The notes beneath the pieces were generated by a model. The model was not told where the DNA came from, did no database searches, and saw nothing but the letters and a program-made list of their open reading frames with translations. The position numbers were made by a program, and so were the translations under genes. From Betaproteobacteria bacterium (GTDB lineage: Bacteria > Pseudomonadota > Gammaproteobacteria > Burkholderiales > Casimicrobiaceae), in contig JAAFIS010000011.1 in assembly GCA_013298695.1 (NCBI GenBank), positions 62,001 through 126,000 of the forward strand: a stretch of 64,000 nucleotides of DNA, read 5' to 3'. Positions 1 through 64,000 of this stretch are shown here, piece by piece. Position 1 is the stretch's first letter, and every line of letters begins with the position of its first letter.

Positions 1-25
1 AGTAGTCTCGTAATTGCCGCTTGCT

Positions 26-42
26 GCCCTAGTTAATAGGGC
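26..42. repeat. GCCCAAT-family palindrome
   Basis: GCCCTA-GTTAA-TAGGGC, a perfect 6-bp inverted repeat with a 5-base spacer. It has the same architecture as copies near 16.7, 24.6, 30.3, 36.9, 41.6, 48.0, 53.1 and 59.2 kb. Confidence 0.6.
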
Positions 43-277
43 GGTTCGCTTACTTGCCGTTGCATCGTTCGACCACCGCACCGCGCACGCGTGAGCAAGA
101 TTGAAGCGCTCGGGAACGTCCCAATGCCACTGCTGCCGATGCGTCTCCCATGCGTCAACCACGAATTGTCCTTGGGTGTTTAGTCGTTGAGGAAGGTCCA
201 AGCCTCGCAAGAAGTGTATTGCTTCGAAAGAATGCGCGCCAACGCGCGGCAACATCGCGCGAAGTAAACTTGAGTTT

Positions 278-445
278 GTGGACAGCCCTGAATCTCAACC
301 TAATCAAGCCGCGACGACTGATCTCGTGTCGCGCAAGACGCGACTCGCGCTCTGGCTCATCGCTGCGGCGATGTTGCTATCGGTGTTTGCAGCGTATGGG
401 CAGCTCGCGTTGCTACTGCAATGGGTAGAGATGAGGCTTTGCTAA
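278..445 (+). CDS. Possible small single-span membrane protein
   Basis: Unrecognised. Reading in this frame gives about 55 residues from a GTG at 278, or 39 from a GTG at 326. A polar N-terminal stretch (ESQPNQAATTD) is followed by basic residues (SRKTR), one hydrophobic helix (LALWLIAAAMLLSVFAAYG) and a short tail ending EMRLC at a TAA. The positive-inside pattern is typical of a real membrane anchor, and the frame stays open back to about 191. No clear ribosome binding site was found and the true start is unknown, so this could also be a remnant of a longer gene. It is the only + strand candidate beside the glycan genes on the other strand. Confidence 0.3.
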   Translation: MDSPESQPNQAATTDLVSRKTRLALWLIAAAMLLSVFAAYGQLALLLQWVEMRLC

Positions 446-473
446 GCGTGCGAGTTACGAGACGTGTTTTCGC

Positions 474-6480: not shown

Positions 6481-7349
6481 GACTCAGCCGATGCGGAAGA
6501 ATGCGCAGGCGCCGTGATTGCTGATGGTGCGTCCGTCGTAAAATCTGTTCGCGCGTCTAATCGCAAACGATCGACTTCCTCACGCAATTCGCGATTTTCG
6601 CGATAGGTACGCGACCACTCCGCGTACACCGAATTTTCGCGGTCAGCGAGCAAACTCAATGCCGGCGTGATGGTGCTGAGCTGAGCCGCGGATCGCGCAC
6701 AGAATACGAGGAAATACAGCGGTTCTGGATAGGATTTAACACCTTTATCATCCATCACCCAATTTTGTTGGGCGACCACGTTAATCGGCCATATGATCGA
6801 ATGGAAAGCCGGACGCTGTGCAAGCCACAATTTATCGGGCCAATATTCACTTAGCTGTTGCTCTAGTTCGGCTTTATCGAGTTCCTGGACGTGATATTCG
6901 TTTTTGTAGCCCGTTTTGTCGCTGTATTCGGGTCGGTTGGGAGACGAGACGAGGAACACACCGTCGGCTGTGAGCAATCGATTAACCTCGCTCAAAAATG
7001 CGCGCTGCGAATCGGCATCGATGTGTTCAATGGTTTCGAATGACACGATGAAATCGAAACTCGCATCCGGCAGCGGGATCTGCGTGCAGCTTGCTGCGAT
7101 GTACTGCAAATTGGGCTGTGCGTACTTTTCATTAGCATGCCGCACGGCGTCGGGCGAGATGTCTACGCCGGTCACAGATAGCGCCACATTCGCGAGCAAG
7201 TTAGATCCGTAGCCTTCTCCACTTGCAACGTCGAGTACGCGCTTGCCTGCCGAATATTCGCGGGCAAGAAAATAGCGATGCCAGTGCTCGTAGACCATCT
7301 CGCCCTGACACTCGGTCAAGAATCTTTCACCGGTGAATTCGAGCGTCAT
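6444..7349 (-). CDS. Class I SAM-dependent methyltransferase (Methyltransf_11 type)
   Basis: 301 residues. It starts MTLEFTGERFLTE, an opening typical of methyltransferases in O-antigen clusters, then motif I RVLDVASGEGYGSNLLA, acidic loop VTGVDISPDAV, DFIVSFETIEHI and GVFLVSSPNRPEYSD. The C-terminus (about 250-301) is a short helical stretch. The gene starts inside hslR (4-base ATGA overlap) and its end overlaps the giant glycosyltransferase, so the run is probably co-transcribed. Residues VVAQQNW (6758-6774 on DNA) coincide with a copy of the GCCCAAT palindrome. Acceptor unknown, presumably a sugar. Confidence 0.82.
   Translation of the reverse strand: MTLEFTGERFLTECQGEMVYEHWHRYFLAREYSAGKRVLDVASGEGYGSNLLANVALSVTGVDISPDAVRHANEKYAQPNLQYIAASCTQIPLPDASFDFIVSFETIEHIDADSQRAFLSEVNRLLTADGVFLVSSPNRPEYSDKTGYKNEYHVQELDKAELEQQLSEYWPDKLWLAQRPAFHSIIWPINVVAQQNWVMDDKGVKSYPEPLYFLVFCARSAAQLSTITPALSLLADRENSVYAEWSRTYRENRELREEVDRLRLDARTDFTTDAPSAITAPAHSSASAESWLVRLARRLAP
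6758..6774. repeat. GCCCAAT-family palindrome inside a methyltransferase gene
   Basis: CCCAAT-TTTGT-TGGGCG, an imperfect copy. Read on the coding strand it encodes VVAQQNW, close to what the urtB copy encodes (VIAQYNW). It may be a chance resemblance, because homologues of this methyltransferase could not be compared. Confidence 0.35.
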
Positions 7350-10939: not shown

Positions 10940-11009
10940 TGTTCACCAATCTCCACAATCACAATCAAGCGCGGCTCCATTCACAAAACAACGTAAAAGC
11001 GATAATTAG

Positions 11010-11073
11010 TTGGGCTAAAGGACGCATTTACGCATAAAGCGAGTAAAGAATAAATTAGCAATTTAACCCAACA
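11010..11073. repeat. Long-spaced inverted repeat, GCCCAAT-related
   Basis: GTTGGGCTAAA at 11010-11020 and TTTAACCCAAC at 11063-11073 form an 11-bp inverted repeat with one mismatch around a 42-base spacer that is A/T-rich at its 3' end. It lies in the divergent region between the transglycosylase gene and the BenE gene. It could be a member of the dispersed palindrome family or a regulatory site. Confidence 0.4.
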
Positions 11074-11199
11074 AAAGCGGCGACAAGCGCAATTCGCTGT
11101 TTAAGCGACAAATCATCACGCCGAGTACGTAGCGACATTAACCGGTACGCGGCAACGACGATCCGGCATTCTGTGACAATCTGAAAAACGTATTCGTTC

Positions 11200-15201: not shown

Positions 15202-16814
15202 GCCTCGGCGCTCCGACCTTTGAGCGCAAAGATGCCTTGAGGACGTCGCTGAATGAATATCACGATAAACACAAGCACGAAGATCTTCGCGAGCACCGCG
15301 CCGGTCCAGCCCTCAAGAAATTTGTTGAGTACGCCGAGTCCCAGCGCTGCGTACACCGTGCCCGCGAGCTGACCCACACCGCCCAGCACCACGACCATGA
15401 ACGAATCAACGATGTAGCTTTGGCCTAGGTCGGGTCCCACGTTGCCCACCTGTGAGAGCGCGCAACCCGCGAGCCCCGCGATGCCTGCGCCGAGCGCGAA
15501 CGCGTAGGTGTCGATACGCGCGGTGTTCACGCCCATGCACGAGGCCATCGTGCGGTTCTGGGTGACGCCGCGAACGAATAGACCGAGCCGTGTTTTATTG
15601 ATGAGTAGGTAGACCAAAAGCAATACAAAAAACGCGAAACCAATGATCGCAATTCGGTTGTAGGGCAGCGTCAAATTGGCCATAACTGCGACGCCGCCGG
15701 AAAGCCATGACGGGTTTTCTACCGGCACGTTCTGTGCACCAAACGTTGAGCGCACAAGCTGGATGAGCATCAGCGATATGCCCCAGGTCGCGAGCAATGT
15801 CTCAAGCGGTCGGCCGTAGAGCCAACGAATGACGGTGCGCTCAAGCGCCGCGCCGACCAGAGCAGCAACCGCAAACGCTACCGGTATTGCAGCGAGGATG
15901 TAGAAATCGAAGGCATCAGGCAGATATTGCCGAAACAAATTTTGTACGAAGTACGTGGTGTATGCGCCGATCATCATAAGCTCGCCGTGCGCCATATTGA
16001 TCACGCCCATGAGGCCATAGGTGATTGCGAGACCTAGCGCGACGAGTAACAAAATCGAGCCGAGCGATGCGCCGCTAAAAATCACGCCAAGTCGCTCGCC
16101 CCACACCAGTTTTCCGTCGATGGTTTTTATCGCGCCGACGAGGGCAGCGCGAACTTCGGGATCGCTCTCCGCGCTGGGTTGCAATCTTTCCTGCAACAAG
16201 GATTTAACCGAGGGTTCACCGCTTGATGCGAGTGCTGCGATGGCGTCGAGTCGTTTCGATTTGTCAGTACTGGCAACGAGCATCGCTGCACGGAGTTGCT
16301 GCAATTTCGCTTTGAGCTCTGCGTCGCTCTCTTTTGCAATCGCTCGATCGATAAGCGGCAGTCGTGCTTCGTCGGCCGCGTCCTTGAGTTCAATGATGGC
16401 TTTCGCTCGCACGTTGCGATCGGTGGACAGCAACGACAGCGCGGCTTTGGCGGCATCGAGTTCACCACGCACGCGGTTGTTGTTGATGATGTCTTCAGCG
16501 TTTGACGGTAAGGGGACTTCGATGCCACTTACTGCGTCAATCGCTTTTCCATCGCGCACTATGAACGCGCGACCGTCGGCGATTTTCACTGCATCGTCGA
16601 GCAAGGCATCAATCAAGCGCGTGAGCGACTCATCGGGCGAAGTCATCGCTTTTGTTAGCGCAGCAATGCGGTCGTCGTTTTCGCCGGTAGTAATTGCCTT
16701 AACAGCATCAGCACTTAGTGCCCAATTATATTGGGCAATTACGGAAAATAAGATAATTACCAATATATTTGATAACAACCTTGCTATCCCAGTGCAACTG
16801 AGCGAAACAGGCAT
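15198..16814 (-). CDS. urtB: Urea ABC transporter permease UrtB
   Basis: 538 residues. UrtB proteins carry an N-terminal periplasmic helical region before a LivH-type permease, and that is seen here: signal-like segment (residues 10-36), a helical repeat region (about 40-240), then membrane helices from about 250 (GASLGSILLLVALGLAITYGLMGVINMAHGELMMIGAY, GGVGQLAGTVYAALGLG). Residues 25-32 (VIAQYNWA) are encoded by a perfect copy of the GCCCAAT palindrome inside the end of the signal segment, so the leader has apparently been altered by the repeat. No good ribosome site precedes the start, and an intrinsic terminator lies between urtA and this gene. Confidence 0.93.
   Translation of the reverse strand: MPVSLSCTGIARLLSNILVIILFSVIAQYNWALSADAVKAITTGENDDRIAALTKAMTSPDESLTRLIDALLDDAVKIADGRAFIVRDGKAIDAVSGIEVPLPSNAEDIINNNRVRGELDAAKAALSLLSTDRNVRAKAIIELKDAADEARLPLIDRAIAKESDAELKAKLQQLRAAMLVASTDKSKRLDAIAALASSGEPSVKSLLQERLQPSAESDPEVRAALVGAIKTIDGKLVWGERLGVIFSGASLGSILLLVALGLAITYGLMGVINMAHGELMMIGAYTTYFVQNLFRQYLPDAFDFYILAAIPVAFAVAALVGAALERTVIRWLYGRPLETLLATWGISLMLIQLVRSTFGAQNVPVENPSWLSGGVAVMANLTLPYNRIAIIGFAFFVLLLVYLLINKTRLGLFVRGVTQNRTMASCMGVNTARIDTYAFALGAGIAGLAGCALSQVGNVGPDLGQSYIVDSFMVVVLGGVGQLAGTVYAALGLGVLNKFLEGWTGAVLAKIFVLVFIVIFIQRRPQGIFALKGRSAEA
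16719..16737. repeat. GCCCAAT palindrome inside the urtB leader region
   Basis: TGCCCAAT-TAT-ATTGGGCA is a perfect 19-base palindrome with an 8-bp arm, located in the urtB coding region at about codons 26-32, where it encodes IAQYNWA on the - strand. Confidence 0.75.
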
Positions 16815-16838
16815 AAGTTAGCGCTTGAATTTGAGTCG

Positions 16839-22125: not shown

Positions 22126-22629
22126 ATGAAAACAGCAACCCACGTTATCGCCCAATCTACTAAGGCGATAGACTCAATACTACTCACTTTCGACCAGAGA
22201 GAAAAATCGCGTTTACGGGCGGAAACAACGGGCGGAATAGTGCTGGGGCTGATGCTAAAGATTGGTACGGTACTTTCTCATGGCGATAAGCTGCAAATTG
22301 ATGACGGCAGCGTGGTTGAAGTGATCGCCGCCGATGAAAAACTCCACGAGATTCGCGCGGTGAACGCAACGCAACTCGCACGCATCGCGTATCACGTCGG
22401 CAATCGCCACGTCCCGCTCCAAGTCAACGACGATCATTTACTGATGCTCCCCGATCATGTGCTGCGCGCGATGGTCGAAGGCTTAGGCGGCACGGTGACC
22501 GAAGTTACGCGACCGTTTCAACCTGAGAGCGGCGCTTACGGTCATTCGCACGTACATCATTCGCATGACGACGAAGGCCACGGCGGACGCATTCACGATG
22601 GCTTGAAGCCGAGTACACAGGATCGTTGA
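22126..22629 (+). CDS. ureE: Urease accessory protein UreE (nickel metallochaperone)
   Basis: 167 residues. The N-terminal peptide-binding domain includes LTFDQREKSRLRAETTGG and the C-terminal nickel-binding domain VGNRHVPLQVNDDHLLMLPDHVL, followed by a His-rich tail (HSHVHHSHDDEGHGGRIHD) that binds extra nickel. UreE passes nickel to UreG for urease activation. Residues 7-16 (VIAQSTKAID) replace the usual opening and are encoded by DNA that resembles the GCCCAAT palindrome. No clear ribosome site is seen because a repeat ends just before the ATG; an alternative start is not apparent. Confidence 0.93.
   Translation: MKTATHVIAQSTKAIDSILLTFDQREKSRLRAETTGGIVLGLMLKIGTVLSHGDKLQIDDGSVVEVIAADEKLHEIRAVNATQLARIAYHVGNRHVPLQVNDDHLLMLPDHVLRAMVEGLGGTVTEVTRPFQPESGAYGHSHVHHSHDDEGHGGRIHDGLKPSTQDR
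22147..22169. repeat. Degenerate GCCCAAT palindrome in the ureE start region
   Basis: ATCGCCCAATCT-ACTAAGGCGAT has ATCGCC/GGCGAT arms around 11 bases. It encodes IAQSTKAI, starting with the same IAQ as the copies in urtB (IAQYNWA) and ispF (IAQ-stop), in the same reading phase. Confidence 0.45.
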
Positions 22630-24399: not shown

Positions 24400-24612
24400 A
24401 TGAAATTTCACTTTTTTTATATGCGTTTCTGCACGTTTATTGGCGCGCTGTTTGCGTTAATCGGTAGCGCTCATGCGCATCCTGGCCATGAGCCGGAAGA
24501 CTTTGTTCACGCACTCGCGCATGAACTCGCGAGCCCCCGAGGTATTCTGGCAATCATCATTTTGATCGTCGCGGGTGCGCTTTGGTTGTACGGTCGTGGT
24601 ACAAAAAAATAG
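24400..24612 (+). CDS. Small exported His-containing membrane protein at the end of the urease operon
   Basis: 70 residues, unrecognised. A signal-like N-terminus (MRFCTFIGALFALIGSAHA) is followed by HPGHEPEDFVHALAHE, with four His in 15 residues, and a C-terminal membrane helix (GILAIIILIVAGALWLYG) ending RGTKK. The HPGH opening after the signal resembles that of HupE/UreJ nickel permeases, but the protein is far too short to be one. A periplasmic metal-binding or scavenging role is possible. I chose the ATG 14 bases after ureG; an in-frame TTG at 24382 overlaps the ureG stop. Confidence 0.65.
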   Translation: MKFHFFYMRFCTFIGALFALIGSAHAHPGHEPEDFVHALAHELASPRGILAIIILIVAGALWLYGRGTKK

Positions 24613-24631
24613 CGTAAACACTATGATGGAT

Positions 24632-24650
24632 CGCCCGTAAATACTGGGCG
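24632..24650. repeat. GCCCAAT-family palindrome after the urease operon
   Basis: CGCCC-GTAAATACT-GGGCG at the 3' end of the urease operon, 20 bases after the last stop. No T-run follows, so it is not a standard terminator. Confidence 0.55.
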
Positions 24651-24740
24651 CTTGCGTTGATTAAATATCGTGGCGAAAAATTCGCAAAAGCATTGCATAG
24701 CCCACAGAAATAGGCGCTACAAGTGAATCGCTATAGTCGC

Positions 24741-30138: not shown

Positions 30139-30274
30139 AAATGTTTACTCGAATCTTTGGGCAACAATCTCTAGCAACTATTGTGCAACAAAGTCAGCTC
30201 GCGTTCAGGTAAACATTTTCGGCAAGCGACAACATAACTTCAAACTTGCGAGAGGTTATAGAAAATGTAGCAAA

Positions 30275-30359
30275 CGCCAAAATTTACTGGGCTTACCCAT
30301 GCATATCGAGTATTACCGAAAAACGAAAAAAAGCTGGGCTAAGCCCAATTAAATTGGGC
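30275..30359. repeat. Clustered GCCCAAT-family palindromes
   Basis: CGCCAAAATTTACTGGGC (30275-30292), then TGGGCTTACCCA just overlapping, and GCCCAATT-A-AATTGGGC (30343-30359), a perfect 8-bp-arm copy preceded by TGGGCTAAGCCCA, which shares bases with it. Two or three units lie within 85 bases, the densest cluster in the window. Confidence 0.65.
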
Positions 30360-30382
30360 TTTAATATGCAAAGATAAAAACG

Positions 30383-30408
30383 AAAACGCCAGCGTAAGCT
30401 GGCGTTTT
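30383..30408. terminator. Bidirectional intrinsic terminator after hsp20
   Basis: AAAACGCCAGC-GTAA-GCTGGCGTTTT, 11-bp arms with A/T runs at both sides, so it can stop transcription from either strand. It lies 22 bases after the hsp20 stop. Confidence 0.85.
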
Positions 30409-36376: not shown

Positions 36377-36865
36377 ATGAATTTCCGCATCGGCACAGGC
36401 TTCGACGTTCATCAACTTGTTACTGGGCGGAAGCTCATCATGGGTGGCGTTGAAATTCCGTATGAAAAAGGATTGCTCGGACATTCCGATGCTGACGTGT
36501 TGCTCCACGCGATTTCTGATGCGCTGCTTGGAGCGGCCGCGCTTGGTGATATTGGCAAACATTTTCCGGATACCGACGCGTCGTATGCGGGCGCAGATTC
36601 GCGCGCGCTTTTGCGCAGTGTCATCGCAACACTGCGAAAACACGGCTACGTGGTCGGTAATATCGACTCAACGATCATTGCGCAAGCGCCAAAAATGGCA
36701 CCGCACATCGCGCAGATGAGAGCCCATATCGCAGCTGACTGTGCAGTTTCCATCGACCAGATCAGCGTGAAAGCAACTACTACGGAAACGCTTGGTTTTA
36801 CTGGGCGAGGCGAGGGTATAGCAGCAAACGCGGTTGCAATTATTACTAAGCTAATCGCCCAATAG
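36377..36865 (+). CDS. ispF: 2-C-methyl-D-erythritol 2,4-cyclodiphosphate synthase
   Basis: 162 residues, normal length. The zinc ligands are in [11 protein letters not shown] (Asp/His) and [30 protein letters not shown] and [15 protein letters not shown] are the other signatures. It cyclises CDP-ME 2-phosphate to MEcPP, the step two after IspD. The last three codons (IAQ) and the TAG stop lie within a GCCCAAT palindrome at 36856-36873. Confidence 0.97.
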
Positions 36866-36873
36866 AATAGGCG
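36856..36873. repeat. GCCCAAT palindrome across the ispF stop codon
   Basis: CGCC-CAATAGAATA-GGCG with CGCCCAAT at its left overlaps the ispF end (codons GCC CAA TAG). Encodes IAQ-stop, the same phase as the urtB and ureE copies. Confidence 0.6.
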
Positions 36874-36927
36874 TTTAGTGGTTATTGTGGAAACCGACCC
36901 AAGGAATCCGCCGAGTAAAATTGAACG

Positions 36928-41439: not shown

Positions 41440-41818
41440 CCAATTTTAGGCGCGCGCCAAGTGGGTCGGATTTTGTTCAGCAGGCGCGCGCAGTCGACAA
41501 ACAATGCAAACCTCAGCGCGCTGTGAGTGCTTGATCGGTTATTTGGCAAAGCGCGTGTCAGTATAAAACTAGCCTCAGAACGCCTATTACATTGGGCGAT
41601 CAGCAAGTCTAGGGGTATACACGAGTAGGCCGCGTTTCGCTCGATTAGTCCATTGTGAAAGTCGTTACAGTGCATACTTTTGGATACAGCGCACGAATTG
41701 GCATGAGCTCAGTCAGTTTCATACTAGCTTCAAGTCCAGTTCAAGTGAATAATTCGGACGCGCAGCAACTATTGCGGCGATACGTCCGCGCGTTTTTTTG
41801 CTCATTTAATTGCTGTGT
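41440..41818. other. Divergent region between uvrD and the GGDEF gene
   Basis: About 380 bases without a gene. It contains a GCCCAAT palindrome at 41581-41598 and presumably the promoters of both divergent genes. The short + frame at 41655-41900 runs into the GGDEF gene and lacks protein character. Confidence 0.55.
41581..41598. repeat. GCCCAAT-family palindrome
   Basis: CGCC-TATTACATTG-GGCG followed by ATCAGC; the right side TTGGGCGATC is shared with the copies at 59.2 kb. Confidence 0.6.
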
Positions 41819-43582
41819 ATGGTTTCTCCGTTTCGCTCGTTGCGCTTCACGCTGCTGGTTCCGTTTGTCGGGCTGGTGGTGGCCGTTGCGGCGGCCGTAA
41901 CCTGGCTCTCGTATCAGGCCAGTGTTCGCGCCGTCGACGAAGTGTCCCGCCGATTGCTCGAGGACGTTGCGAATCGAATCGCGCAAACGACGACTCAATA
42001 TTTGTCTACGCCCGCCGTGGTCCTCAATGTTATTGCGCCGGAATCGCAACCCGACGTCAGTGGCGCGGATCTAAGCTCGTTGTCGCCAGTACTGGTTTCG
42101 GATTTTGAGAAGCGGCTTTGGGTCGCGTCAAATTTGTTTCCCAAACAAAATCATTACGTTTACTACGGTGCGGACAGCGGTCGCTTTGTTGGTTTGCAGC
42201 GCGATGCGCCTGGCGGAGCGGAACTACGTTTGCGAGCGCAGCCCGACGAGCCGCGTCGTGTGTATCGCGCTGTGTCGCCTGAGGTGCGCGGCGAAGTTTT
42301 GCGCGAGGAAGCTTACGACCCAAAGACTCGACCCTGGTACAAGCTTGTTGTCGAAAAGCGCGTGACAACGTGGACGCCGATGTACCGCAACTTCGCCTCC
42401 GGTGAGCTCACGATCACGTTGGCGCGTCCTGTGTTTCGGCCCGATGGCACGGTGCGCGGTGTTGCGGCCACAGATTTGTCGCTTGCCCAGCTCGCGAAGT
42501 TCGTTCGTGCGCTCACCATCAGTGAAAGCGGTGTTGCATTTATCGTCGACCCCGCGGGGCAACTGATTGCTTCATCGTTCGCGGAGTCGGCGGCAGGCCA
42601 AACCTCTCAGACCCAAACCTCTGGCGCGCTCGATAGCGCCTCTCCGCTAATTCGGGACGCGTTCGCCACGATTGTGGCCGCAAGAAATCCAGACACACCA
42701 TTAACGTCGAATTCAACGACGGTGCGCCATCAGCCGTTTAAAAGTTCGCTCGGGCCGGCTCATTTATCGGTGATCGATTACCACGACGGCGCGGGGCTCG
42801 ATTGGCGCCTCGTCGTTGCCGTCCCGCGAGCTGACCACATGGCGCCGGTGTATCAAAACATGACGGAGAATCTCACTATTGGTGCGCTGGCGGTGTTGCT
42901 TGCTTTAGCGTTGGGTGCATGGATGATCCACCGCGTCGCGCGAGATGTGAGCGATGTTTCTCGCGCTGCAGATAGGCTGATGCGAGGTGACGGACCGATC
43001 ACTCGGATCCCCACGCGCGGCGATGAAATTGGCGTGCTCGCGACTTCGGTGGCCGCGATCCAAGATCAGCTTTTGTACGACCCGCTCACAGGCGCGCTGA
43101 ATCGTTCCGCGTTCGTGCGCCAATTTGGCGTTGTCGTCGATGAGTTAGCTGCAGGCGAACGTTTAGCGCTCGTGTACATCGATCTTGACCGCTTCAAAAA
43201 AGTAAACGACCGACACGGTCACGCAATGGGCGACATCGTGCTCGCGAAATCTGCGGAGCGGATCCGTCGTCGACTGCGAGAAAAAGATTTGTTTGCACGC
43301 TACGGCGGAGACGAATTTGTCGTGATGGTGCGCGGGAAAGCGGCGGTTGACGCAGCGCCCGCCTTGGCAGACCGTTTGCGCGAGCGTTTATCGATGGGAA
43401 TGACGATTGGCGAGCTTAGTGTTTCGGTCGGCGCTTCAATCGGAATTGCAATCTATCCCGATGATGGCGACTCGCTCGACGAGCTCCTCGCTCGCGCCGA
43501 CAGCCGGATGTACGACGAAAAACGCAAAACCGCGTCGGAGCGGAAGGATCGTAGACGCAACTTTTTTGTTTCAGCGCCCTAG
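41819..43582 (+). CDS. Membrane diguanylate cyclase with Cache sensor domain
   Basis: 587 residues. A first membrane helix (about 8-30), a periplasmic double-Cache-type sensor (about 35-345; YDPKTRPWYKL is the family's mark), a second helix (about 353-372), a HAMP-like linker (VSRAADRLMRGDGPITRI) and a GGDEF domain from about 420. The active site is YGGDEFVVM and an intact allosteric I-site RxxD (REKD) lies five residues before it. It should make cyclic-di-GMP in response to an outside signal, product-inhibited. The ATG at 41819 follows the TTG of the longer frame. Confidence 0.93.
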   Translation: MVSPFRSLRFTLLVPFVGLVVAVAAAVTWLSYQASVRAVDEVSRRLLEDVANRIAQTTTQYLSTPAVVLNVIAPESQPDVSGADLSSLSPVLVSDFEKRLWVASNLFPKQNHYVYYGADSGRFVGLQRDAPGGAELRLRAQPDEPRRVYRAVSPEVRGEVLREEAYDPKTRPWYKLVVEKRVTTWTPMYRNFASGELTITLARPVFRPDGTVRGVAATDLSLAQLAKFVRALTISESGVAFIVDPAGQLIASSFAESAAGQTSQTQTSGALDSASPLIRDAFATIVAARNPDTPLTSNSTTVRHQPFKSSLGPAHLSVIDYHDGAGLDWRLVVAVPRADHMAPVYQNMTENLTIGALAVLLALALGAWMIHRVARDVSDVSRAADRLMRGDGPITRIPTRGDEIGVLATSVAAIQDQLLYDPLTGALNRSAFVRQFGVVVDELAAGERLALVYIDLDRFKKVNDRHGHAMGDIVLAKSAERIRRRLREKDLFARYGGDEFVVMVRGKAAVDAAPALADRLRERLSMGMTIGELSVSVGASIGIAIYPDDGDSLDELLARADSRMYDEKRKTASERKDRRRNFFVSAP

Positions 43583-43640
43583 CGTATTGGCAAAGCGTTC
43601 GTAAAAAGAATTTGTTGATTAATTACGCGTTAACCAGTTT

Positions 43641-43658
43641 CGCCCAATAAATGCGGCG
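43641..43658. repeat. GCCCAAT-family palindrome, degenerate
   Basis: CGCCCAATAAATGCGGCG has CGCC/GGCG arms around 10 bases; lies in the 197-base gap between the GGDEF gene and argA. Confidence 0.45.
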
Positions 43659-43779
43659 TTTACTGTATGCAGCTGATTGCTGATTTCGAGCTTTGTCTAA
43701 TCGAATTCATCGGCCATCTGCGTCGTCGATATGCACTGGGTACTCGCCTAATTTGCAGCTAGCGCGCCGATAGAATCGC

Positions 43780-47639: not shown

Positions 47640-48208
47640 GCGGACTTTTTTGGTCAATCGCAACGTTCGTTGTGATGAGTCCGTGCGAGACTGGGCGGGG
47701 GCTGCGTCGCCTGTTCTTGCGCACCAATCTTAACTATTGCGATCTCGGCACCTGACACATGTGCGATGAAACCACACGGGTTTGCAACGTCGTTTGAGAT
47801 AAGAGCGTGTTGAACGACCGCGATCTCGTCGACCGCGTTATGTACGCTGCGGCTCGGGGCGTTTGACTCGTGTAAACGCTAGTGTCTGCCCGTACATGAG
47901 CAGAACGCCGGGCGAGAGCGATGTGGAATCGCTGAAATAAATTTACGTCTACGAGCCCAATTCAATTGGGTAAAAACGATATTTTATTTGATACCCGATT
48001 TTATATATTTATCGACTTTAGCCCATATATTCAGTCGGAAGCGAAGATTTATCTAAATGAATGTTGAGGCAGCTTCACACCCACTGCCACCCGCGCGTCG
48101 TCTATCACGCAACACCCCTTCCGCGAACGGTCGCGATTGCCCGCGCCTTATCGCCTGCCCCGTGACAGCGTTTTTGCGCTTGTCGATACTGCGTAGCATT
48201 CAGTCAAT
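47640..48208. other. Intergenic region before the TM2 kinase, partly A/T-rich
   Basis: About 570 bases with no gene. The half near 47930-48060 is A/T-rich and holds a GCCCAAT palindrome (47955-47970) plus a second GGGTA...TACCC inverted pair (47968-47972, 47992-47996). It probably carries the promoter of the histidine-kinase operon. Confidence 0.6.
47955..47970. repeat. GCCCAAT-family palindrome
   Basis: CCCAATT-C-AATTGGG, 7-bp arms with one base spacer, preceded by G; near-perfect member in the A/T-rich region before the kinase gene. Confidence 0.65.
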
Positions 48209-53067: not shown

Positions 53068-53100
53068 GTCGGAACATCGTTACAGCTTCCGATGTATAAC

Positions 53101-53124
53101 GCCCATTTAAATGGGCTTTGTTTT
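53101..53124 (+). terminator. Intrinsic terminator formed by a GCCCAAT-family palindrome
   Basis: GCCCATTT-AAATGGGC (8-bp perfect palindrome) is followed by TTTGTTTT at 53117-53124, so the copy acts as a normal Rho-independent terminator for the repeat-protein gene. Confidence 0.75.
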
Positions 53125-53206
53125 ACTATTTCGCTACTCACAAAGTTGAGTAGAAAATGCATTATCGCCCGAGCTAACTGCCATCTCCGACTCCAAGCTG
53201 TTGTGG

Positions 53207-54184
53207 TTATACCCACTTAATCTGCCTAAAAAACCACCAGAGCGCCGCGCTGCCACAGGCCATCAATAACAGTGCGAACGGATAGCCGAACACCCATTCA
53301 AGTTCGGGCATGTGTTTGAAATTCATTCCGTAAATTGCGCCAACGATGGTCGGAACCATCAAGATTGCGCCCCAGCTCGCAAGTTTCTTTGTGACCTCAG
53401 TTTCCTGCAAAGTAATGAGCGACAAATTAGTTTGCGTCGCGCTGTTTTCGAGTTCGCGCAAATTGTCGAGTGACTCATCGATGCGGATAACGTGGTCGAG
53501 CACGTCTCTGAAATATGGTCGCAACATTTCGCTAAAGATGGGATGCTTGTGCGCGACTAATCTCCCCGCTACATCAACGAGCGGCGTCACAGCGCGGCGC
53601 AAACAAATCGTGTCCCGCTTAAGATCGTAGATCTTTTCTGCGGCGGCGCGGCGATCCACACCAGCCGCAAAAATCGTCTCTTCGATTAGGTCAAGACGGT
53701 CTTCGAGATTTTCAAGCAGCGGAAAGTGCCGATCAACGACTTCATCAATGAGCGCATGAACCGCTGCGCCTGCCCCGAGCGCCAGGAATTCGGGCTCGCG
53801 CTCTAACTCTGAACGAACGCGCTTGAAATCAAGCTGCGCACGATGGCGCACCGTGAGGACGAAACGGTCTGTTGCGTACACGTGAAGCTCACCGTCGACA
53901 AACTCATCGCCTCGGTGTTCAACCGTGTGCAGTACCAGAAATAAGGTGCTGCCGTATTCTTCAAGTTTCGCGCGCTGTGATCCGCGATTGGTGTCTTCAA
54001 TCGCAAGCTCGTGCAGATTGAATTCTTCTTGCATCTTCGCGAGCGTCGCCGCGTCGGGTTCAAATAGCGCGACCCAAACAAATGATTTTGACGGCGGATT
54101 GGAATCCAGAAAATCGCTGATTGCTTCGATATCGATCGGCTTCTGGCGAACCCCGTTGACGTAAGCAGCGCAATCTATAAGCAT
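53207..54184 (-). CDS. corA: CorA-type magnesium/divalent-metal transporter
   Basis: 325 residues. The soluble N-terminal domain (about 1-255) and coiled helices (LENLEDRLDLIEETIFAAG) lead to two C-terminal membrane helices with the pore motif GMN (VPTIVGAIYGMNFKHMPELEWVFGYPFALLLM, in pieces YGMNFKHMPELEW). The protein forms a pentameric Mg2+/Co2+ channel. Its ATG is only 36 bases from the divergent phosphatase start, so the two share a very short control region. Confidence 0.92.
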   Translation of the reverse strand: MLIDCAAYVNGVRQKPIDIEAISDFLDSNPPSKSFVWVALFEPDAATLAKMQEEFNLHELAIEDTNRGSQRAKLEEYGSTLFLVLHTVEHRGDEFVDGELHVYATDRFVLTVRHRAQLDFKRVRSELEREPEFLALGAGAAVHALIDEVVDRHFPLLENLEDRLDLIEETIFAAGVDRRAAAEKIYDLKRDTICLRRAVTPLVDVAGRLVAHKHPIFSEMLRPYFRDVLDHVIRIDESLDNLRELENSATQTNLSLITLQETEVTKKLASWGAILMVPTIVGAIYGMNFKHMPELEWVFGYPFALLLMACGSAALWWFFRQIKWV

Positions 54185-57948: not shown

Positions 57949-58099
57949 AAGATCTACTGCGGTTCGCGGTAAGGCAACTGCTCTGCTAACGGGTTACTAG
58001 CCAGTCTTGTTTGTTTAGTCCGAGAATTCGATGTAGATCGCCTGAGCTAATCGATGGCTCGCCTAGAATCGCTCCTTAAAACAACATAAAGGAGCGAGT

Positions 58100-59005: not shown

Positions 59006-59197
59006 ATTCAGTCATGTGAATGCGCCGCACGGTACTTTCGCCGCTTTCACGATCCGAACTGATCACTGATTGCGAGTTTGCAAGTAGCTAGCTTCATTGA
59101 ACACTTGTGTTTTTCTGTGGCGTTGATGCGTGGTGTGTGTCGTAGTGCGCGAGTGGTTGCGTATTGATCATATTAATATCAACTTTTTTTTGTTATT

Positions 59198-59213
59198 CCC
59201 AATTTACTTGGGC
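59198..59213. repeat. GCCCAAT-family palindrome
   Basis: CCCAA-TTTAC-TTGGGC followed by GATCAATG. Confidence 0.6.
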
Positions 59214-59263
59214 GATCAATGCATTTCGTAACATTATCAATATCCACATAAACTTATCTTATT

Positions 59264-59280
59264 GCCCAACATCATTGGGC
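59264..59280. repeat. GCCCAAT-family palindrome
   Basis: GCCCAA-CATCA-TTGGGC, then GATTCGATG; 51 bases from the preceding copy. Confidence 0.65.
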
Positions 59281-59449
59281 GATTCGATGAAGCGTTGATT
59301 CGATTCAACGCCCATTCACACTCCGTGCTAATTACTCATCCAAACTCATCTCATCACCGATTTCGTACTCGTCACGCGCTGTGTCGCACGTTCCGATTCA
59401 ACTGTGTCTCGGGCTTCATCGCCCCGACTTTAGCGACTAGATCAAGCCG

Positions 59450-60031
59450 CTAAGAAAAATTCTTCACCAGCGTAGCAATGAAAGCCTCTGCGGGCCGTCC
59501 TGTACTAAGCAGCCCATTAGCAACAAAGGTGTCGCAGCTCAACCATTTGTCGCCGATGACTTCGAGGTGCGCCGCGTTTGAAACTGCGAGTATCGCGCAC
59601 TCAAAACTTCTGTTCGCATAGATCGAGAACTGCTGGTTCGATGCAACGAAGCAAAGAATCTCAGCGTTGTATCGCAGCGCATCCGCACCGCTGTTTCCAG
59701 GATCGGCGGCGAGCAATCGCAGATAGTCAGATCCGGTCGCAACGTCATCTACGACCCACCAGCCGGGATGCCCGAAGTGTCTAACGTAGTAATCAATCGG
59801 ATTTGGATCAAGCGATCCAACGAACATTTCGCCGCAGCAAGCAACGTTTAGCAGGGAGACGCAATCCGTCCAGCCTTCCTCTGAAAGTAAATAGTCGAAT
59901 TCAGCAAAACGAAAATACATGTTCTCATTGCGAAAGACTCGCGAGGGTAATAACGCCGTTTGATCCATGGTCAAAGCAACTGTGGACCAAACGCGCTTAA
60001 ACTCTTCGTGATCGACGATCAATCTATTCAC
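59450..60031 (-). CDS. Probable immunity protein for the mini-RHS protein
   Basis: 193 residues, unrecognised. Starts GTG at 60031, overlapping the TGA of the RHS gene (GTGA), the tight toxin-to-immunity order known for RHS and other polymorphic toxin loci. Sequence features include RVFRNENMYFRFAEFDYLLSEEGWTD, LNVACCGEMFVGSLDPNPI and PGWWVVDDVA; it looks like a cytoplasmic globular protein with no signal or membrane helix. The immunity role is inferred only from position and size. Confidence 0.6.
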   Translation of the reverse strand: MNRLIVDHEEFKRVWSTVALTMDQTALLPSRVFRNENMYFRFAEFDYLLSEEGWTDCVSLLNVACCGEMFVGSLDPNPIDYYVRHFGHPGWWVVDDVATGSDYLRLLAADPGNSGADALRYNAEILCFVASNQQFSIYANRSFECAILAVSNAAHLEVIGDKWLSCDTFVANGLLSTGRPAEAFIATLVKNFS

Positions 60032-61083
60032 GGTACCCTCGCGCCTTCCGCCGAATCAAGTCGAATCTTGAGGTTTACTCTTTCCGTTCCGCTGCTGGAG
60101 TAGTCGGCCGTGGGTCCCTTGGTGCTGTCTGCGTTGTCCCTGACCGCGTAATTCTTGCCGTCCTTTGAGTAGTTAACGACCTTGCCGTCCTTACTGACGG
60201 AACGCGAAAAACCGGAAGCCGACAGATTGGCCTCAAGCTCTGCGCGCGTGACGTCAGTAGATCGATTTGGGACACTTCTCGCGCCGCTACCGTTCACGTA
60301 GCTGGAGGACGGACTCGCAGGATTTATTGCGGCGCTAGTGGAAGTGGCGACGTCAGTTTTCGCAGCATTACTCGCCGCAGCGCGAGCTTCAACACCAGCC
60401 GTGCTGCGCATACCCGCGCCAAGCCCTGCACTATTCGGGCCAAGCACCATTCCGATAACCGCGCCCTCGCTCGCAGCATCGAAAACACCGTTCACACCGC
60501 CCCACTGAACTGACCCGTTCATGATGAGCTGACCCATTGCGTTCACGGCACCGCCCGATAACCACCCAACCGATGAGCCTCCGCCCACGTGAATCGCCAC
60601 GGCCACGTGAACGGGCGTACGCCCGTCCGGATCCAAATACTTATAAGGATTGTTCTTGCCGCATGCGTAGCGGTTAAACGAGTGCGGGTTGTCTTCATCC
60701 GCGCCCGTCGGATCGAAGCCCACGAAGCGCCCGACGGCGGGGCTCAGTTGGCAAATGCGGCCGCTTGCGCCGAAGTACACGAGCCCCGTGGCGCTATCCT
60801 GCGGTTTGCCGATGTACCAGAGCTTGTTCGCGATCGTTCCGGTGTTCGCCCCCGATTCATTCTTCCGGCGCACGTTGATGTCAGACCAAATCGCTTCCAG
60901 TTGTCGCGATTTGTCATCCCGCCACAGCGCAACCCCGGCGCTATCCGTGGGCATCAGCGGCGAGCCTTTGACGTCGGGGTGGATGACTGGTTTAGTGCCC
61001 AGCGTGTCGCGCGCAAACGCGGACGCATGCGTGACTAGCACGATCCCAATGAGCGATACAACAATCTTTGTGTTCAATGACAA
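60028..61083 (-). CDS. Mini-RHS protein with variable C-terminal domain (putative toxin)
   Basis: 351 residues, far shorter than true RHS proteins (over 1000). A signal peptide (VVSLIGIVLVTHASAFA) is followed by one RHS-core block: TGLVYFGASGRICQLSPAVGRFVGFDPTGADEDNPHSFNRYACGKNNPYKYLDPDGR (key parts GRFVGFDPTG, NPYKYLDPDG) near residues 95-155. After this core comes a Gly/Ser/Ala-rich stretch and a C-terminal domain (about 270-351; RAELEANLSASGFSR, KVVNYSKDGKNYAVRDNADS, VNLKIRL) that differs from the core, as in polymorphic toxins. The start codon is a TTG at 61083; its ribosome site is weak. The toxic activity is not identifiable. Confidence 0.7.
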   Translation of the reverse strand: MSLNTKIVVSLIGIVLVTHASAFARDTLGTKPVIHPDVKGSPLMPTDSAGVALWRDDKSRQLEAIWSDINVRRKNESGANTGTIANKLWYIGKPQDSATGLVYFGASGRICQLSPAVGRFVGFDPTGADEDNPHSFNRYACGKNNPYKYLDPDGRTPVHVAVAIHVGGGSSVGWLSGGAVNAMGQLIMNGSVQWGGVNGVFDAASEGAVIGMVLGPNSAGLGAGMRSTAGVEARAAASNAAKTDVATSTSAAINPASPSSSYVNGSGARSVPNRSTDVTRAELEANLSASGFSRSVSKDGKVVNYSKDGKNYAVRDNADSTKGPTADYSSSGTERVNLKIRLDSAEGARVP

Positions 61084-61187: not shown

Positions 61188-62381
61188 CTAGCACGCAAGC
61201 CGTACCGTCGCATCACGACGCTTGTGCAAATCTGGCAACAACTCGATACCCAACCCAGGTTTGTCATTCAGCGAAATCGACCCGTGCACAACGCGCGGTA
61301 ATTCGGTGACGAGTTCTTTGTACCAACCTGAATAAAACGCGCGCACGCTTTCTTGAATGAGCGCGTTTGGGGCGTGAAGCGAGAGATGGGTGCTCGCCGT
61401 CCACACCACTGGTCCGGTGCAATCGTGCGGAGCGACTGGCAGCTGCCATGCGTCAGCCATCGCAGCAATTTTTCGCGCTTCAGTCAATCCGCCGCACCAT
61501 GATAAATCGAGCATTGCGAGGCCTGCCACGCCGGTTTGCAGCAAATCTTTGAAGCCCCACTTGTACGAAAGTGTTTCGCTTGCGCAGATGAGCGCATCGG
61601 TGTGCGGCGCGTATTGCTTGAGCAGGTCAAGCGAATCCATGCGAATTGCGTCTTCGTGCCAAAACGTGTTGAACGGCTTCAACGCGCGTGCGATTTTTTG
61701 CGCCATCGGTAAACGCCACAGCGAATGAAATTCGACCATGATGTCCATGTCGTTGCCGACCGCGCTGCGGATTTTGCGAAATGGCTCGAGTGCTCTTTCA
61801 AGGTCGACGTTAGAAATGTATTGACCGTTGCTCGCCTCTGCCGCCGGATCGAACGGCCAAATCTTCATCGCAGAAATGCCTTCGCTTTTGAGCGAGAGCG
61901 CAAGTTCATCGGCGTGATGCAAAAACCCATCAAGGTCTTCATACGGCCCTGCGTTGTTGCCTAAACCCCAATTACTGGTGCTTTGGTTCGTGCTGTTACG
62001 AACGTATTGATAGCCTGCGCAAGTGTTGTAGATACGAATCGCATCGCGCGATTTGCCCCCAAGCGCGGTGTGAATTGGCATGTTCGCCGCTTTGCCGAAT
62101 ACGTCCCACAGCGCGATATCAATCGCGCTGTTGCCGCGCGTTTCAACCCCTGATCCGCGCCAGCCGAGATAGCCGAGCAAATCCATATTGCGCACTTCAA
62201 TGGCGAGTGGATTTTTACCGATTAGTTTTTGCGCCGCCCATTCGTGAATATAGGCTTCAACGGCTGCTGCGCCCATGAAGGTTTCGCCGAGACCGACGAG
62301 ACCTTCGTCGGTATACAAACGAACCCAGAGAATGTTTGGGAACTCACCGAGACGAATTGTTTCAACTTGCGTGATCTTCAT
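61188..62381 (-). CDS. Enolase-superfamily (mandelate racemase/muconate lactonizing-type) enzyme
   Basis: 397 residues. MKITQVETIRLGEFPN opens the capping domain; the barrel contains KIWPFD (Lys near 190), the metal-ligand series VEFHSLW, WHEDAI and ICASETL, and the His-Asp APHDCTGPV at the end, arranged as in acid-sugar dehydratases of the MR group. It likely dehydrates a sugar acid; the substrate is unknown. It lies on the same strand downstream of TRAP transporter genes, which probably import that acid. Confidence 0.85.
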   Translation of the reverse strand: MKITQVETIRLGEFPNILWVRLYTDEGLVGLGETFMGAAAVEAYIHEWAAQKLIGKNPLAIEVRNMDLLGYLGWRGSGVETRGNSAIDIALWDVFGKAANMPIHTALGGKSRDAIRIYNTCAGYQYVRNSTNQSTSNWGLGNNAGPYEDLDGFLHHADELALSLKSEGISAMKIWPFDPAAEASNGQYISNVDLERALEPFRKIRSAVGNDMDIMVEFHSLWRLPMAQKIARALKPFNTFWHEDAIRMDSLDLLKQYAPHTDALICASETLSYKWGFKDLLQTGVAGLAMLDLSWCGGLTEARKIAAMADAWQLPVAPHDCTGPVVWTASTHLSLHAPNALIQESVRAFYSGWYKELVTELPRVVHGSISLNDKPGLGIELLPDLHKRRDATVRLAC

Positions 62382-62652
62382 ATCAGTTCCGTTTCCCGCA
62401 CACGTCAGAAGACTAAGGTAATGGTTGTGAAGTGATTAGAGAATTGAAGATATAGAGAGAAGCGCGGGTGTGCGTACGCAGGTATAAACGTAGAGGGGCG
62501 GGGTTAGGCGCCCTCACCCCAACCCACCTCCCAGATCACGCTCGCGCAAGCGAGCAATCGTTTCGGCGGCGGATCGCGTGAGATCCGGAACATCACCACC
62601 AACCCGCGCTGCAACAGAGAGCGAGTTAGGTAGCGCTACTAACCCCGACAAA

Positions 62653-63657
62653 TCATCCGCCGCGCGCCTTCTTGAGTGCGTCAACCACTACATTAATGGC
62701 ATCAGCGCCAATGGTTGCTGCGTTCTTGTCATAAACCGGTTTTACTTTTTCGAACATGCGGCGCTGTTCTGCTGCGCTGATTTCGTTGACTTGCATGCCT
62801 TTCGCTTTGAGATCAGCGAGCGCTTTGCCGTCGTTCGCGCGAATTGTCGCGCGCTGTACTTTTTGTCCTTCAATCGCGGCTTCGCGAAGTGCGGCTTGCT
62901 CGTCTTTCGAGAGTTGATCCCAGAGCTTTTTGCTGTAGAGCACCAAAAACGGTGTGTACGCGTGGCGAGTGACACTCAGAAATTTTTGTACTTCAAAAAA
63001 CTTCGATGTGTTGATCGTGACGAACGGATTTTCTTGCCCGTCGATTGTTTTGGTTTCAAGCGCGGTAAACACTTCGCCGAACGCCATCGGTACGGCGTTG
63101 GTGCCGAGTGTTTTGAACGTATCGAGGAAGATGTTGTTCTGCATCACGCGAACTTTGATGCCATCGAAATCTTCAACTTTATTGACCGGCTTCTTGCTGT
63201 TGGTAAGGTTGCGGAAACCGTTTTCCCAATAAGCGAGATTGACGAGTCCGGCTTCTTCGAGCTTCTTGTTGAAGTAGGCACCCGCAGTACCGTCTAGCAC
63301 TGCGTCTACTTCCTTTTCGTTACCAAACAAAAATGGCAAGTCAAACACGCCAAGTTCTTTCACGATCCCCACGAGCGGCGACGATGAGGTGACAACCATC
63401 TCTTGGGTGCCTGCGCGCAGCGCTTGAGTGGCTTGCAAATCACCACCCGCCGAGCCGCCCCAGAACGCGTTCATCTTGAGCTTCCCGCCGGATTTCGCGG
63501 TGAGGATTTCCTGCATCTTCTTTACACCAGCGCCGACCGGATGGTCTTCATTCACGCCGTTGCTCATCTTAATGTTGCGTTCGGAAAACTGCGCAAGTGC
63601 AGCCGTTGTAGCGAGCGCCGTCGTTGCGAGCAACGTAGCTAGAGTTCTCAGTTTCAT
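62653..63657 (-). CDS. dctP: TRAP transporter solute-binding protein (DctP)
   Basis: 334 residues. Signal peptide (LRTLATLLATTALATTAALA), then the DctP pattern: KMSNGVNEDHPVGAGVKKMQEILTAKSGGKLKMNAFWGGS (parts), LGVFDLPFLFGNEKEVDAVLDG, DGIKVRVMQNNIFLDTFKTLG with the conserved Arg that binds the ligand carboxylate, and AMAFGEVFTALETKTIDGQENP. It captures an organic or sugar acid in the periplasm. The ATG at 63657 has AGGAG nine bases upstream; a longer frame to 63714 is rejected. It follows the dctM gene with 44 bases between. Confidence 0.95.
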   Translation of the reverse strand: MKLRTLATLLATTALATTAALAQFSERNIKMSNGVNEDHPVGAGVKKMQEILTAKSGGKLKMNAFWGGSAGGDLQATQALRAGTQEMVVTSSSPLVGIVKELGVFDLPFLFGNEKEVDAVLDGTAGAYFNKKLEEAGLVNLAYWENGFRNLTNSKKPVNKVEDFDGIKVRVMQNNIFLDTFKTLGTNAVPMAFGEVFTALETKTIDGQENPFVTINTSKFFEVQKFLSVTRHAYTPFLVLYSKKLWDQLSKDEQAALREAAIEGQKVQRATIRANDGKALADLKAKGMQVNEISAAEQRRMFEKVKPVYDKNAATIGADAINVVVDALKKARGG

Positions 63658-63701
63658 CGGTTTCTCCTTTGTTGAGGTTGATTGGTATCTTCTTATTAAC
63701 G

Positions 63702-64000
63702 CTATTTCATCCACCAGGATAGCGGCACCATCACTAGATCGGGAAATAGCACGAGCAAAAACAAAACTATGAGTTGTGCGATCAAAAATGGCATCACGCC
63801 CTTGAATGCGTCATCCATCGAGATTCGTGCGACACCGCTGACCACGTTTAGCACGGTGCCGACTGGTGGCGTAATGAGGCCAATCGCATTGTTCATGATA
63901 AACAGAACGCCAAAGTACACAGGATCAATGCCCGCCTTGATGACAACCGGCATCAATACGGGCGTCAAAATTAGCACCGTGGGCGCGAAATCCAGCGCGG
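63702..64000 (-). CDS. dctM: TRAP transporter large permease (DctM), partial
   Basis: C-terminal ~99 residues, cut by the window end. ALDFAPTVLILTPVLMPVVIKAGIDPVYFGVLFIMNNAIGLITPPVGTVLNVV (parts) is the DctM core with NNAIGLITPPVG, and the last helix ends PLSWWMK. It moves the acid delivered by DctP using a sodium gradient. The upstream part, and probably dctQ, lies beyond the window. Confidence 0.92.
   Translation of the reverse strand, partial: ALDFAPTVLILTPVLMPVVIKAGIDPVYFGVLFIMNNAIGLITPPVGTVLNVVSGVARISMDDAFKGVMPFLIAQLIVLFLLVLFPDLVMVPLSWWMK

Follow-up and report, generated by a model that had tools for sequence, protein, structure and literature searches.

The palindrome that recurs through the 64-kb window (the whole stretch of DNA analysed, 64,000 nucleotides long) is one part of a composite, mirror-symmetric element of about 125 bp, in which two 17-bp palindromes lie 67 bp apart with a TCGA dyad between them and AGCT blocks outside. 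Copy numbers are estimated at about 640 in this genome (G000) and about 400 in the congener G005, both values being extrapolations from 400 kb rather than whole-genome counts. We propose, with confidence that falls just short of even, that the elements are inherited arrays of double-stranded DNA, putatively bound by a protein complex, which set topological or folding points of the chromosome. Protein binding, DNA rather than RNA as the target and a role in topology or folding are what we infer from sequence comparisons.

In the 4.08-Mb genome G000, to which the window belongs, the fixed form GCCCAA-N5-TTGGGC is present at 106 sites and its reversed form at none, while the nonamer TTGGGCGAT is found 261 times genome-wide against 33 in the reversed control; the palindrome described in the earlier note is real. 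With spacers of 0 to 25 bases, GCCCAA-N0..25-TTGGGC yields 114 sites genome-wide against 7 in the control. A second palindrome-like 17-mer, with at least 8 of 12 arm bases, was present at +67 or -67 bp (±2) in 73 of the 98 fixed sites, out of 106, that were read for pairing. For defining the anatomy, 57 distinct elements were kept, each with its partner exactly 67 bp away and with a single entry per pair, and 4 doubtful ones were excluded from alignment A1. The blocks are ordered AGCT(TTT), palindrome (GCCC..GGGC), TCGA dyad centre, palindrome and (AAA)AGCT, and their dyad centres fall at approximately -56, -33.5, 0, +33.5 and +56 bp, at distances of 22.5, 33.5, 33.5 and 22.5 bp; an early reading of these distances as 2:3:3:2 turns of 11.2 bp was set aside. 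AT-rich tracts occur at offsets of about 3.5, 13.5, 23.5, 33.5, 44 and 53 bp. The blocks are conserved and the spacers carry approximately zero information, yet they are exact in length. Identity between any two of 53 compared copies is at most 64% (nearest-neighbour maximum 0.64), and the non-conserved columns average 31–37% identity between different copies. In the unbiased G000 set the outer arm is far less conserved than the inner arm, the selection of exact palindromes having made the G000 palindrome appear more perfect than it is. The consensus derives from indel-free matches only (55 of 63 in G000 and 12 of 36 in G005).

Scoring with models R1 and R2 and with a refined HMM located 12 elements in the window and one cut at its edge. 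The recurrence of the palindrome described in the earlier note was confirmed at 11 places, with arms that are in part imperfect, and every place is recognised by one or more element models, most of them by several; two elements, at about 6733-6864 and 22126-22258, were absent from that first list. The window's best element lies at 59173..59304 (R1 E=3.5e-23) and its palindromes, at 59197-59213 and 59264-59280, are 67 bp apart. Complete elements are also present 3' of an hsp20 gene at 30252..30383 (R1 E=2.7e-21; palindromes 30276-30292 and 30343-30359), at 16696..16827 (R1 E=3e-20; palindrome 16720-16736), at 24609..24740 (R1 E=1.7e-5; refined HMM 35 bits; palindrome 24633-24649) and at 6733..6864, within a methyltransferase ORF and outside its Pfam domain (R1 E=1.2e-10; refined HMM 29 bits). 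Others occur at 22126..22258 (R1 E=2.1e-7; refined HMM 22 bits), at 43558..43682 between a GGDEF gene and the following AA-kinase/acetyltransferase gene (R1 E=3.1e-5; refined HMM 25 bits), at 36767..36896 overlapping the end of a YgbB-family gene (refined HMM 27 bits; R1 E=0.014; R2 E=0.0022) and at 53076..53207 in a convergent gap (53067 + / 53207 -; R1 E=0.0023; refined HMM 21 bits), where the palindrome at 53101-53116 also scores as terminator-like. The sites at 11010-11073 and 47968-47996, earlier taken for long-spaced relatives of the palindrome, are real, but they are parts of 67-bp pairs rather than separate features; the former is covered by an element at 10993..11102 (R2 E=1.9e-4; refined HMM 24 bits) and the latter belongs to one at 47931..48062 that covers the palindromes at 47955 and 47968 (R1 E=3.2e-8). 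Two matches are weak, namely 41564..41654 in a divergent gap, detected by the refined HMM only (14 bits, E=0.002) and not by R1 or R2, and the right half of the edge-cut element at 1..66, with its palindrome at 26-42 (R1 model positions 67-132, E=0.011; refined HMM 5 bits).

Samples of 400 kb contained 63 elements of at least 10 bits in G000 and 36 in G005, and the same sequences reversed contained none; of 40 stretches of 20 kb that were sampled, 39 had an element. Low-scoring copies form a tail in the G000 sample, and in the G005 sample 36 of the 37 matches of at least 6 bits reach at least 25 bits, with almost no decayed tail. The range of the element is near genus-restricted in the genomes searched. 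In the genome searches with R1 and R2, where most elements appear on both strands, at most 150 candidates per genome were scored (53 and 22 in larger searches), which caps the counts. Within the genus, 15 of 17 genomes, G000 included, had R1 matches among the candidates scored. In the two others, G011 and G014, none of the candidates scored matched R1, a model biased to the G000 arms. None of 47 genomes from other genera of the family had a match among the candidates scored, and for a sample of the order a five-species model gave matches, again among the candidates scored, in 4 of 150 genomes, three of them members of the genus and one with a single weak match. No earlier description of the element was encountered in the literature searched, which does not prove its absence in print; PMC6379681, PMC12393610, PMC3116915 and PMC2229807 served for comparison.

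The elements lie preferentially at gene 3' ends and in convergent gaps. They occupy 15 of 27 convergent gaps of at least 100 bp in G000 and 10 of 21 in G005, and 24 of 105 and 15 of 93 tandem gaps, respectively; divergent gaps are not avoided, with 7 of 35 and 8 of 41 carrying an element, or about 20% of those of at least 100 bp. Of the 63 elements in the G000 sample, 48 lie in gaps, 12 in called genes and 3 at the sample edges, while 2 of 36 in the G005 sample and 22 of the 98 fixed-palindrome sites are inside called genes, counts that include overcalled starts since the gene caller is a hexamer score. Spacing is over-regular in most, not all, segments. Mean intervals range from 5 to 13 kb, with a coefficient of variation (CV) of 0.30–0.64 compared with 0.73–0.95 for random gaps, and at a threshold of at least 10 bits the five-segment mean CV is 0.49 against 0.88 for random gaps, with none of 2000 null draws as even. 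The evenness falls short of significance in segment G005a (P=0.06-0.08) and, at thresholds of at least 15 bits, in segment G000b (P=0.14-0.24), and in the window significance is lost at 25 bits, where 6 elements are left.

The palindrome arms differ by species. The outer arm reads GCCCAA rather than GCCCAT by 15 to 1 among 110 half-sites of the unbiased G000 sample and by 5 to 41 among 122 half-sites of G005, G016 and G018, whose sets consist of the best R1 matches and were expected to favour the G000 form. The sets compared comprised 55 elements from G000 and the best R1 matches from G005 (23), G006 (24), G016 (20) and G018 (18). Many copies, although not all, occupy orthologous places, and these places are not fixed, among genomes whose nearest kin show MetG identities of at most 78%. 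Six locus pairs have both flanking genes in common, with 2 of the 12 copies matching weakly; all six were chosen for carrying an element and they demonstrate shared places, not the frequency of empty ones. Downstream of hsp20 an element occurs in 6 of 10 loci and none was detected in the other 4, and for the window's hsp20 element (30252..30383) an element is present at the matching place in five kin contigs. Kin contig L016 carries one at 1514-1630, at the place matching 41564..41654, and L017, where it is syntenic with a stretch of the window holding four elements, matches a single one of them, that at hsp20. A trace was seen by eye in L017 at window position 43641, where there is no model match.

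The earlier note considered a REP-like mobile palindrome, and an old mobile element of the MITE/ERIC or REPIN kind, which spread in the ancestor of the genus and is now fossil or domesticated, possibly with target immunity, would account for hundreds of mostly intergenic and near genus-restricted copies, for places partly unshared between species, for the low-scoring tail in G000 and, given target immunity, for the even spacing as well. The size is close to that of ERIC (about 127 bp), which is likewise intergenic with inverted ends, and REPINs resemble the element in their hundreds of intergenic copies, in a less conserved spacer and in palindromic units paired at a fixed distance in extragenic space, 67 bp here and 71 bp in the GI REPINs, as far as the published excerpts go. 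We nevertheless regard such an origin as unlikely. Among the copies compared none are near-identical; they share short blocks while their spacers are unrelated, the AGCT and TCGA blocks are additional to the REPIN plan, many places are shared, and the evenness of the spacing differs from the near-random distribution over extragenic space reported for REPIN doublets in the section consulted (PMC3116915). The arms that differ between species argue against neutral decay of shared old copies, and G005 almost lacks decayed ones. Furthermore, the one Y1_Tnp match in G000 (E<=0.001), RAYT-sized at 173 aa, is flanked by a different, GTAG-type REP, GTAGGGTGGGCA..TGCCCACC, and its flanks carry GTAGGGTGGGCACCCCGTGCCCACC and not the element's palindromes. 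A Y1/RAYT-type gene with other REPs, the lack of highly similar copies among those compared and the over-regular spacing in most segments led us to reject membership of the REPIN/REP-RAYT group, and the mobile-palindrome proposal is not supported.

An uptake signal, also raised earlier, is not supported either, since 12 of 16 copies of TTGGGCGAT in a 400-kb sample lie inside an element or no more than 70 bp from one, so that the nonamer is mostly the element's inner arm rather than independent of it, and a fixed 67-bp geometry would be superfluous for uptake. The idea of a regulator site came nearest, in that the element resembles a sequence-specific protein-binding array; the copy number, the bias to 3' ends and convergent gaps and the even spacing indicate chromosome organisation rather than conventional regulation. 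Palindromic sites undergoing coordinated species-specific change might belong to one large conventional regulon or to several regulators, but we judge this very improbable for hundreds of evenly spaced sites, many of them behind genes and built as a complex fixed array. A transcribed RNA element at mRNA 3' ends, forming paired hairpins, a cloverleaf or a terminator, is also improbable, if less strikingly so. It would be in keeping with the bias to gene 3' ends, with the overlap of two window palindromes with terminator-like matches (30334-30348 and 53101-53116) and with compensatory-like changes at the P1 flanks and the outer arms in G000, where both-sided changes amount to 132 cells against 109±8 and covariation is seen at P1 (z=4.5) and the outer arms (z=2.4). 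Against it, the P1, P2, outer and centre helices of G005 show no pair excess over shuffles and those of G006 a weak excess only, and on the transcript strand GU (252) is about as frequent as AC (228; P=0.29) in 108 tandem-gap elements out of 209 entries in partly overlapping sets. Covariation gives little support, and wobble none, for an RNA hairpin, and such a role is weakened. The spacers are exact in length and unconserved in sequence, about one in five of the longer divergent gaps carries an element, and the terminator-like stem-loop of the hsp20 gene sits at the element's outer edge (30383-30408). Nor is there a consistent T run after the palindromes, the mean sense-strand T content of the following 8 nt being 1.7 after P1 and 2.9 after P2 in the 108 tandem elements; intrinsic terminators were rejected as a general identity, a GC stem with a T run being absent at most copies. 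Terminator-like matches in 16000-35000 and 41000-60500 number 25 and 41, compared with 28.3 and 29.8 in shuffles, and in the window Rfam, at gathering scores, matched 5_ureB_sRNA only and nothing at an element.

A specific version of the protein-bound chromosome site, which we consider rather doubtful, would have each element act as a strong DNA gyrase site, with about 130 bp wrapped, a 4-bp-stagger cut at the central TCGA and phased AT/GC arms favouring wrapping, located where positive supercoils collect, behind genes and between convergent ones. In the published portions consulted, the E. coli gyrase motif spans 130 bp, is symmetric about the 4-bp cleavage and shows a 10.75-bp GC periodicity to -63 and +66, and the enzyme is enriched 3' of active transcription units. 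The dyad symmetry, length and 4-bp TCGA centre of the element agree with that motif. The AT-rich tracts, the bias to gene 3' ends and convergent gaps and the spacing of 5-13 kb also speak for this version, and BIME-2 and strong gyrase sites of E. coli similarly lie 3' of genes. The arm phasing is statistically mixed: power at 9.5-11.5 bp gave P=0.004 over 10-60 bp and P=0.17 over 18-66 bp, the pooled data peak most strongly at 7.4-7.6 bp, and per species over 10-60 bp a peak near 10 bp appears in G000 and G016 only, the other three lying near 7.6, a pattern that follows in part from the placing of the palindromes. Gyrase is universal, whereas the element is near genus-restricted. Moreover, its blocks show strong base identity, whereas the known motif, as far as the sources consulted describe it, is degenerate and its readout presumed indirect. 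Gyrase is our leading candidate occupant, as a guess.

For the protein-bound sites that we favour, a complex would recognise the symmetric blocks of the double-stranded element and, once bound, would wrap or bridge the DNA, such that topological or folding points may arise every ~5-13 kb, mostly just 3' of genes and between convergent genes. Like these elements, matS and the binding sites of SlmA and Noc are dispersed palindromes, used to organise the chromosome or to couple that organisation to division; each of them is a single, short palindrome limited to parts of the chromosome, whereas here a ~125-bp composite occurs in nearly every stretch sampled. No sequence code is known to us that would place the boundaries of small supercoil domains at regular distances. 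A fuller form of the proposal, possible but one that we would lean against, is that in this genus of Burkholderiales ~400-640 composite nucleoprotein sites, spaced about 5-13 kb apart, constitute an inherited grid delimiting near-equal topological domains, with site and putative binder co-evolving in each species; the bacterial chromosome would then have a quasi-periodic scaffold written in its sequence. For bacteria, supercoil domains of about 10 kb are mentioned in the text consulted (PMC3420936). Even if the elements are old mobile ones, their even spacing and their species-specific yet conserved palindromes still need explaining; if the proposal is true, the long-standing question of how small topological domains are defined becomes testable with a 125-bp sequence.

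The palindromes of core GCCCAAT-n-ATTGGGC that an earlier note had read in the window from sequence alone were correctly placed on rereading, and they are over-represented in the whole 4.08-Mb source genome (G000), where GCCCAA-N0..25-TTGGGC occurs 114 times, against 7 in the reversed control. The spacer is exactly 5 in 106 of these sites, a form with 0 occurrences in the reversed genome. The TTGGGCGAT extension, also counted genome-wide, occurs 261 times versus 33 in reverse, and 12 of 16 copies in a 400-kb sample lie in, or at most 70 bp from, a larger element of which the palindrome forms part.

At 73 of the 98 sites read in G000, a partner palindrome-like 17-mer occurs at 67 bp (±2) on either side, and alignment of 57 such pairs yielded a dyad of about 125 bp. 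Its consensus, which was sharpened by the selection for exact palindromes, reads tatCAGCTtT-n5-TnATC-GCCCAATTTAATTGGGC-GATAa on the left and ...TTaTCGATAA...TC-GCCCAATTaAATTGGGC-GAT...aaAGCTGnt through the centre and right, with close to zero information in the spacers. Five dyads occupy fixed positions across about 112 bp, from AGCT to AGCT. An unbiased G000 sample (n=55) shows TTGGGC, the inner arm, to be well conserved and the outer arm far less so. AT tracts recur at approximately 10-bp steps (3.5, 13.5, 23.5, 33.5, 44 and 53), and a spectral test of this phasing gave a mixed result. Models derived from the alignments detected 12 elements and one cut element in the window, with no convincing match in the reversed window; two window elements lie at places absent from the earlier list.

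Samples of 400 kb, chosen irrespective of palindromes, contained 63 elements of at least 10 bits (HMM score) in G000 and 36 in the congener G005, and none when reversed, which extrapolates to about 640 and 400 per genome, respectively. Among the matches listed, a model biased to the G000 arms (R1) matched 15 of the 17 genomes searched within the genus, including G000, and 0 of 47 genomes from six other genera of the family, while a five-species model was positive, again among listed matches, in 4 of 150 genomes sampled from the order, three belonging to the same genus and one giving a single weak match. Judged by MetG, the closest named kin are uncultured Betaproteobacteria/Burkholderiales MAGs, with a top identity of 78%. 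Two genomes of the genus, G011 and G014, lack an R1 match and are candidates for loss of the element together with its putative binder, unless their arms are too divergent for R1.

The exact palindrome is scarce beyond G000 (10 copies in G007, 8 in G008 and 0–2 in other genomes of the genus) because the architecture is the same but the arms and neighbouring bases differ between species. Of 110 half-sites in G000, 15 have GCCCAA and 1 has GCCCAT as the outer arm; the corresponding numbers are 5 and 41 of 122 pooled from G005, G016 and G018, and G006 carries GCC with a different inner part. Of 28 positions tested, each species departs from G000 at 7–11 (P<0.05/28), the two halves of one element being entered as separate sites. 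Scores in G005 (samples L306-L325 and L368-L387) are almost all at least 25 bits and G000 shows a long low-scoring tail; constraint on the element may be relaxing in G000.

Among gaps of 100 bp or longer, elements occur in 15 of 27 convergent ones in G000 and 10 of 21 in G005, compared with 24/105 and 15/93 of the tandem and 7/35 and 8/41 of the divergent ones. Within tandem gaps, the centre of an element lies at a median of 87–90 bp past the stop codon. The 98 sites with the exact palindrome were mapped as well: 46 are tandem, 26 convergent and 3 divergent, whereas 22 fall within called genes and 1 at an edge.

In the segments compared, the elements are spaced more evenly than random gaps. 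At a threshold of at least 10 bits, the coefficient of variation (CV) of intervals was 0.64 versus a null mean of 0.91 (G005a), 0.33 versus 0.95 (G005b), 0.62 versus 0.90 (G000a) and 0.57 versus 0.89 (G000b) in four contiguous 220-kb segments, and 0.30 versus 0.73 in the window, the null being randomly chosen intergenic gaps. The mean across the five is 0.49 versus 0.88, with 0 of 2000 draws as low. Even spacing holds at all five thresholds in G005b and G000a; G005a gave P=0.06–0.08, G000b is not significant at thresholds of at least 15 bits, and in the window the signal is gone at 25 bits, where just 6 elements are left. Element numbers in 20-kb stretches are likewise under-dispersed (variance/mean 0.58 and 0.50), and mean intervals range from 4.8 kb (window) to 12.7 kb (G005a).

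Other repeats occur nearby or elsewhere in the genome. A RAYT-sized Y1 transposase gene (L206:1298-2124; contig C1 of G000, about 100-101 kb) with GTAGGGTGGGCACCCCGTGCCCACC repeats on its flanks is a separate, typical REP/RAYT arrangement, whose G007 version (L207) carries GTAGGGTGCAATCTCATTGCACC. In the window, 27-nt GTCATTCCCGCGAAGGCGGGAATC-type repeats form an inverted pair 46 bp apart at 22020-22119, directly adjoining the element at 22126-22258, and an inverted repeat with 44-nt, 84% complementary arms (45123-45236) begins at the 3' end of an AA-kinase/acetyltransferase gene. On the minus strand at 20322-20611, antisense to the gene for urease alpha, Rfam gives a 5_ureB_sRNA match of 63.7 bits that may stem from coding homology alone.

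Changes on both sides of pairs are in modest excess in G000 (132 versus 109±8 cells in shuffles, reached in 1 of 500), mostly at the flanks of the first palindrome helix (z=4.5) and the outer arms (z=2.4), as a role in RNA would predict; signals in G006 are weak, and G005 shows no excess over shuffles in either palindrome helix, the outer helices or the centre. Across 108 elements from tandem gaps, the transcript strand shows GU no more often than AC (252 versus 228, P=0.29), and a consistent T run was not found. We therefore favour action at the DNA level and consider a function in RNA improbable.

The main rival to a chromosomal site is an old family of the MITE or REPIN type; it may have target immunity, in which case its copies would likewise be evenly spaced. 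We judge this reading unlikely, if less so than a role in RNA. The 53 G000 elements compared share at most 64% pairwise identity, with 31% mean agreement in non-conserved columns, and thus show no recent copying among themselves. Six locus pairs, G000 versus congener, have homologous genes on both sides of a gap that holds an element in each member (L115/L252, L130/L280, L164/L218, L100/L239, L127/L219 and L141/L188), one gap being divergent and two members scoring weakly with the G000 HMM (L164, 14.7 bits; L239, 5.1 bits); ten further pairs have in common just a single flanking gene or a paralogue, and all pairs were retrieved as element-bearing, so that they do not give the frequency of empty places. 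An element lies at most 100 bp downstream of hsp20 in 6 of 10 loci compared (window 30252-30383, L016, L017, L020, L021 and L022) and is not detectable there in L018, L019, L023 and L024. Of four window elements in the stretch syntenic with L017 (30252, 36767, 41564 and 43558), only that at 30252 is matched. Some places are thus retained and others gained or lost. Old shared sites with species-specific arms are expected of sites tracking a putative trans-acting binder, and are not what a mobile element in neutral decay would yield.

On the features compared, the element fits none of the REPIN, ERIC/MITE, terminator, uptake-sequence or gyrase-site classes in full. With the E. coli gyrase motif, as described in PMC6379681, it has in common length, symmetry, a 4-bp centre and location. 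It is a putatively new family among interspersed palindromic elements, and the portions of the literature searched yielded no description of such a family with even spacing and species-specific arms. The array of five dyads, the even spacing at 5–13 kb and the bias towards gene ends and convergent gaps are consistent with a putative nucleoprotein site, at which a protein complex would occupy the array in the folding or topology of the chromosome.
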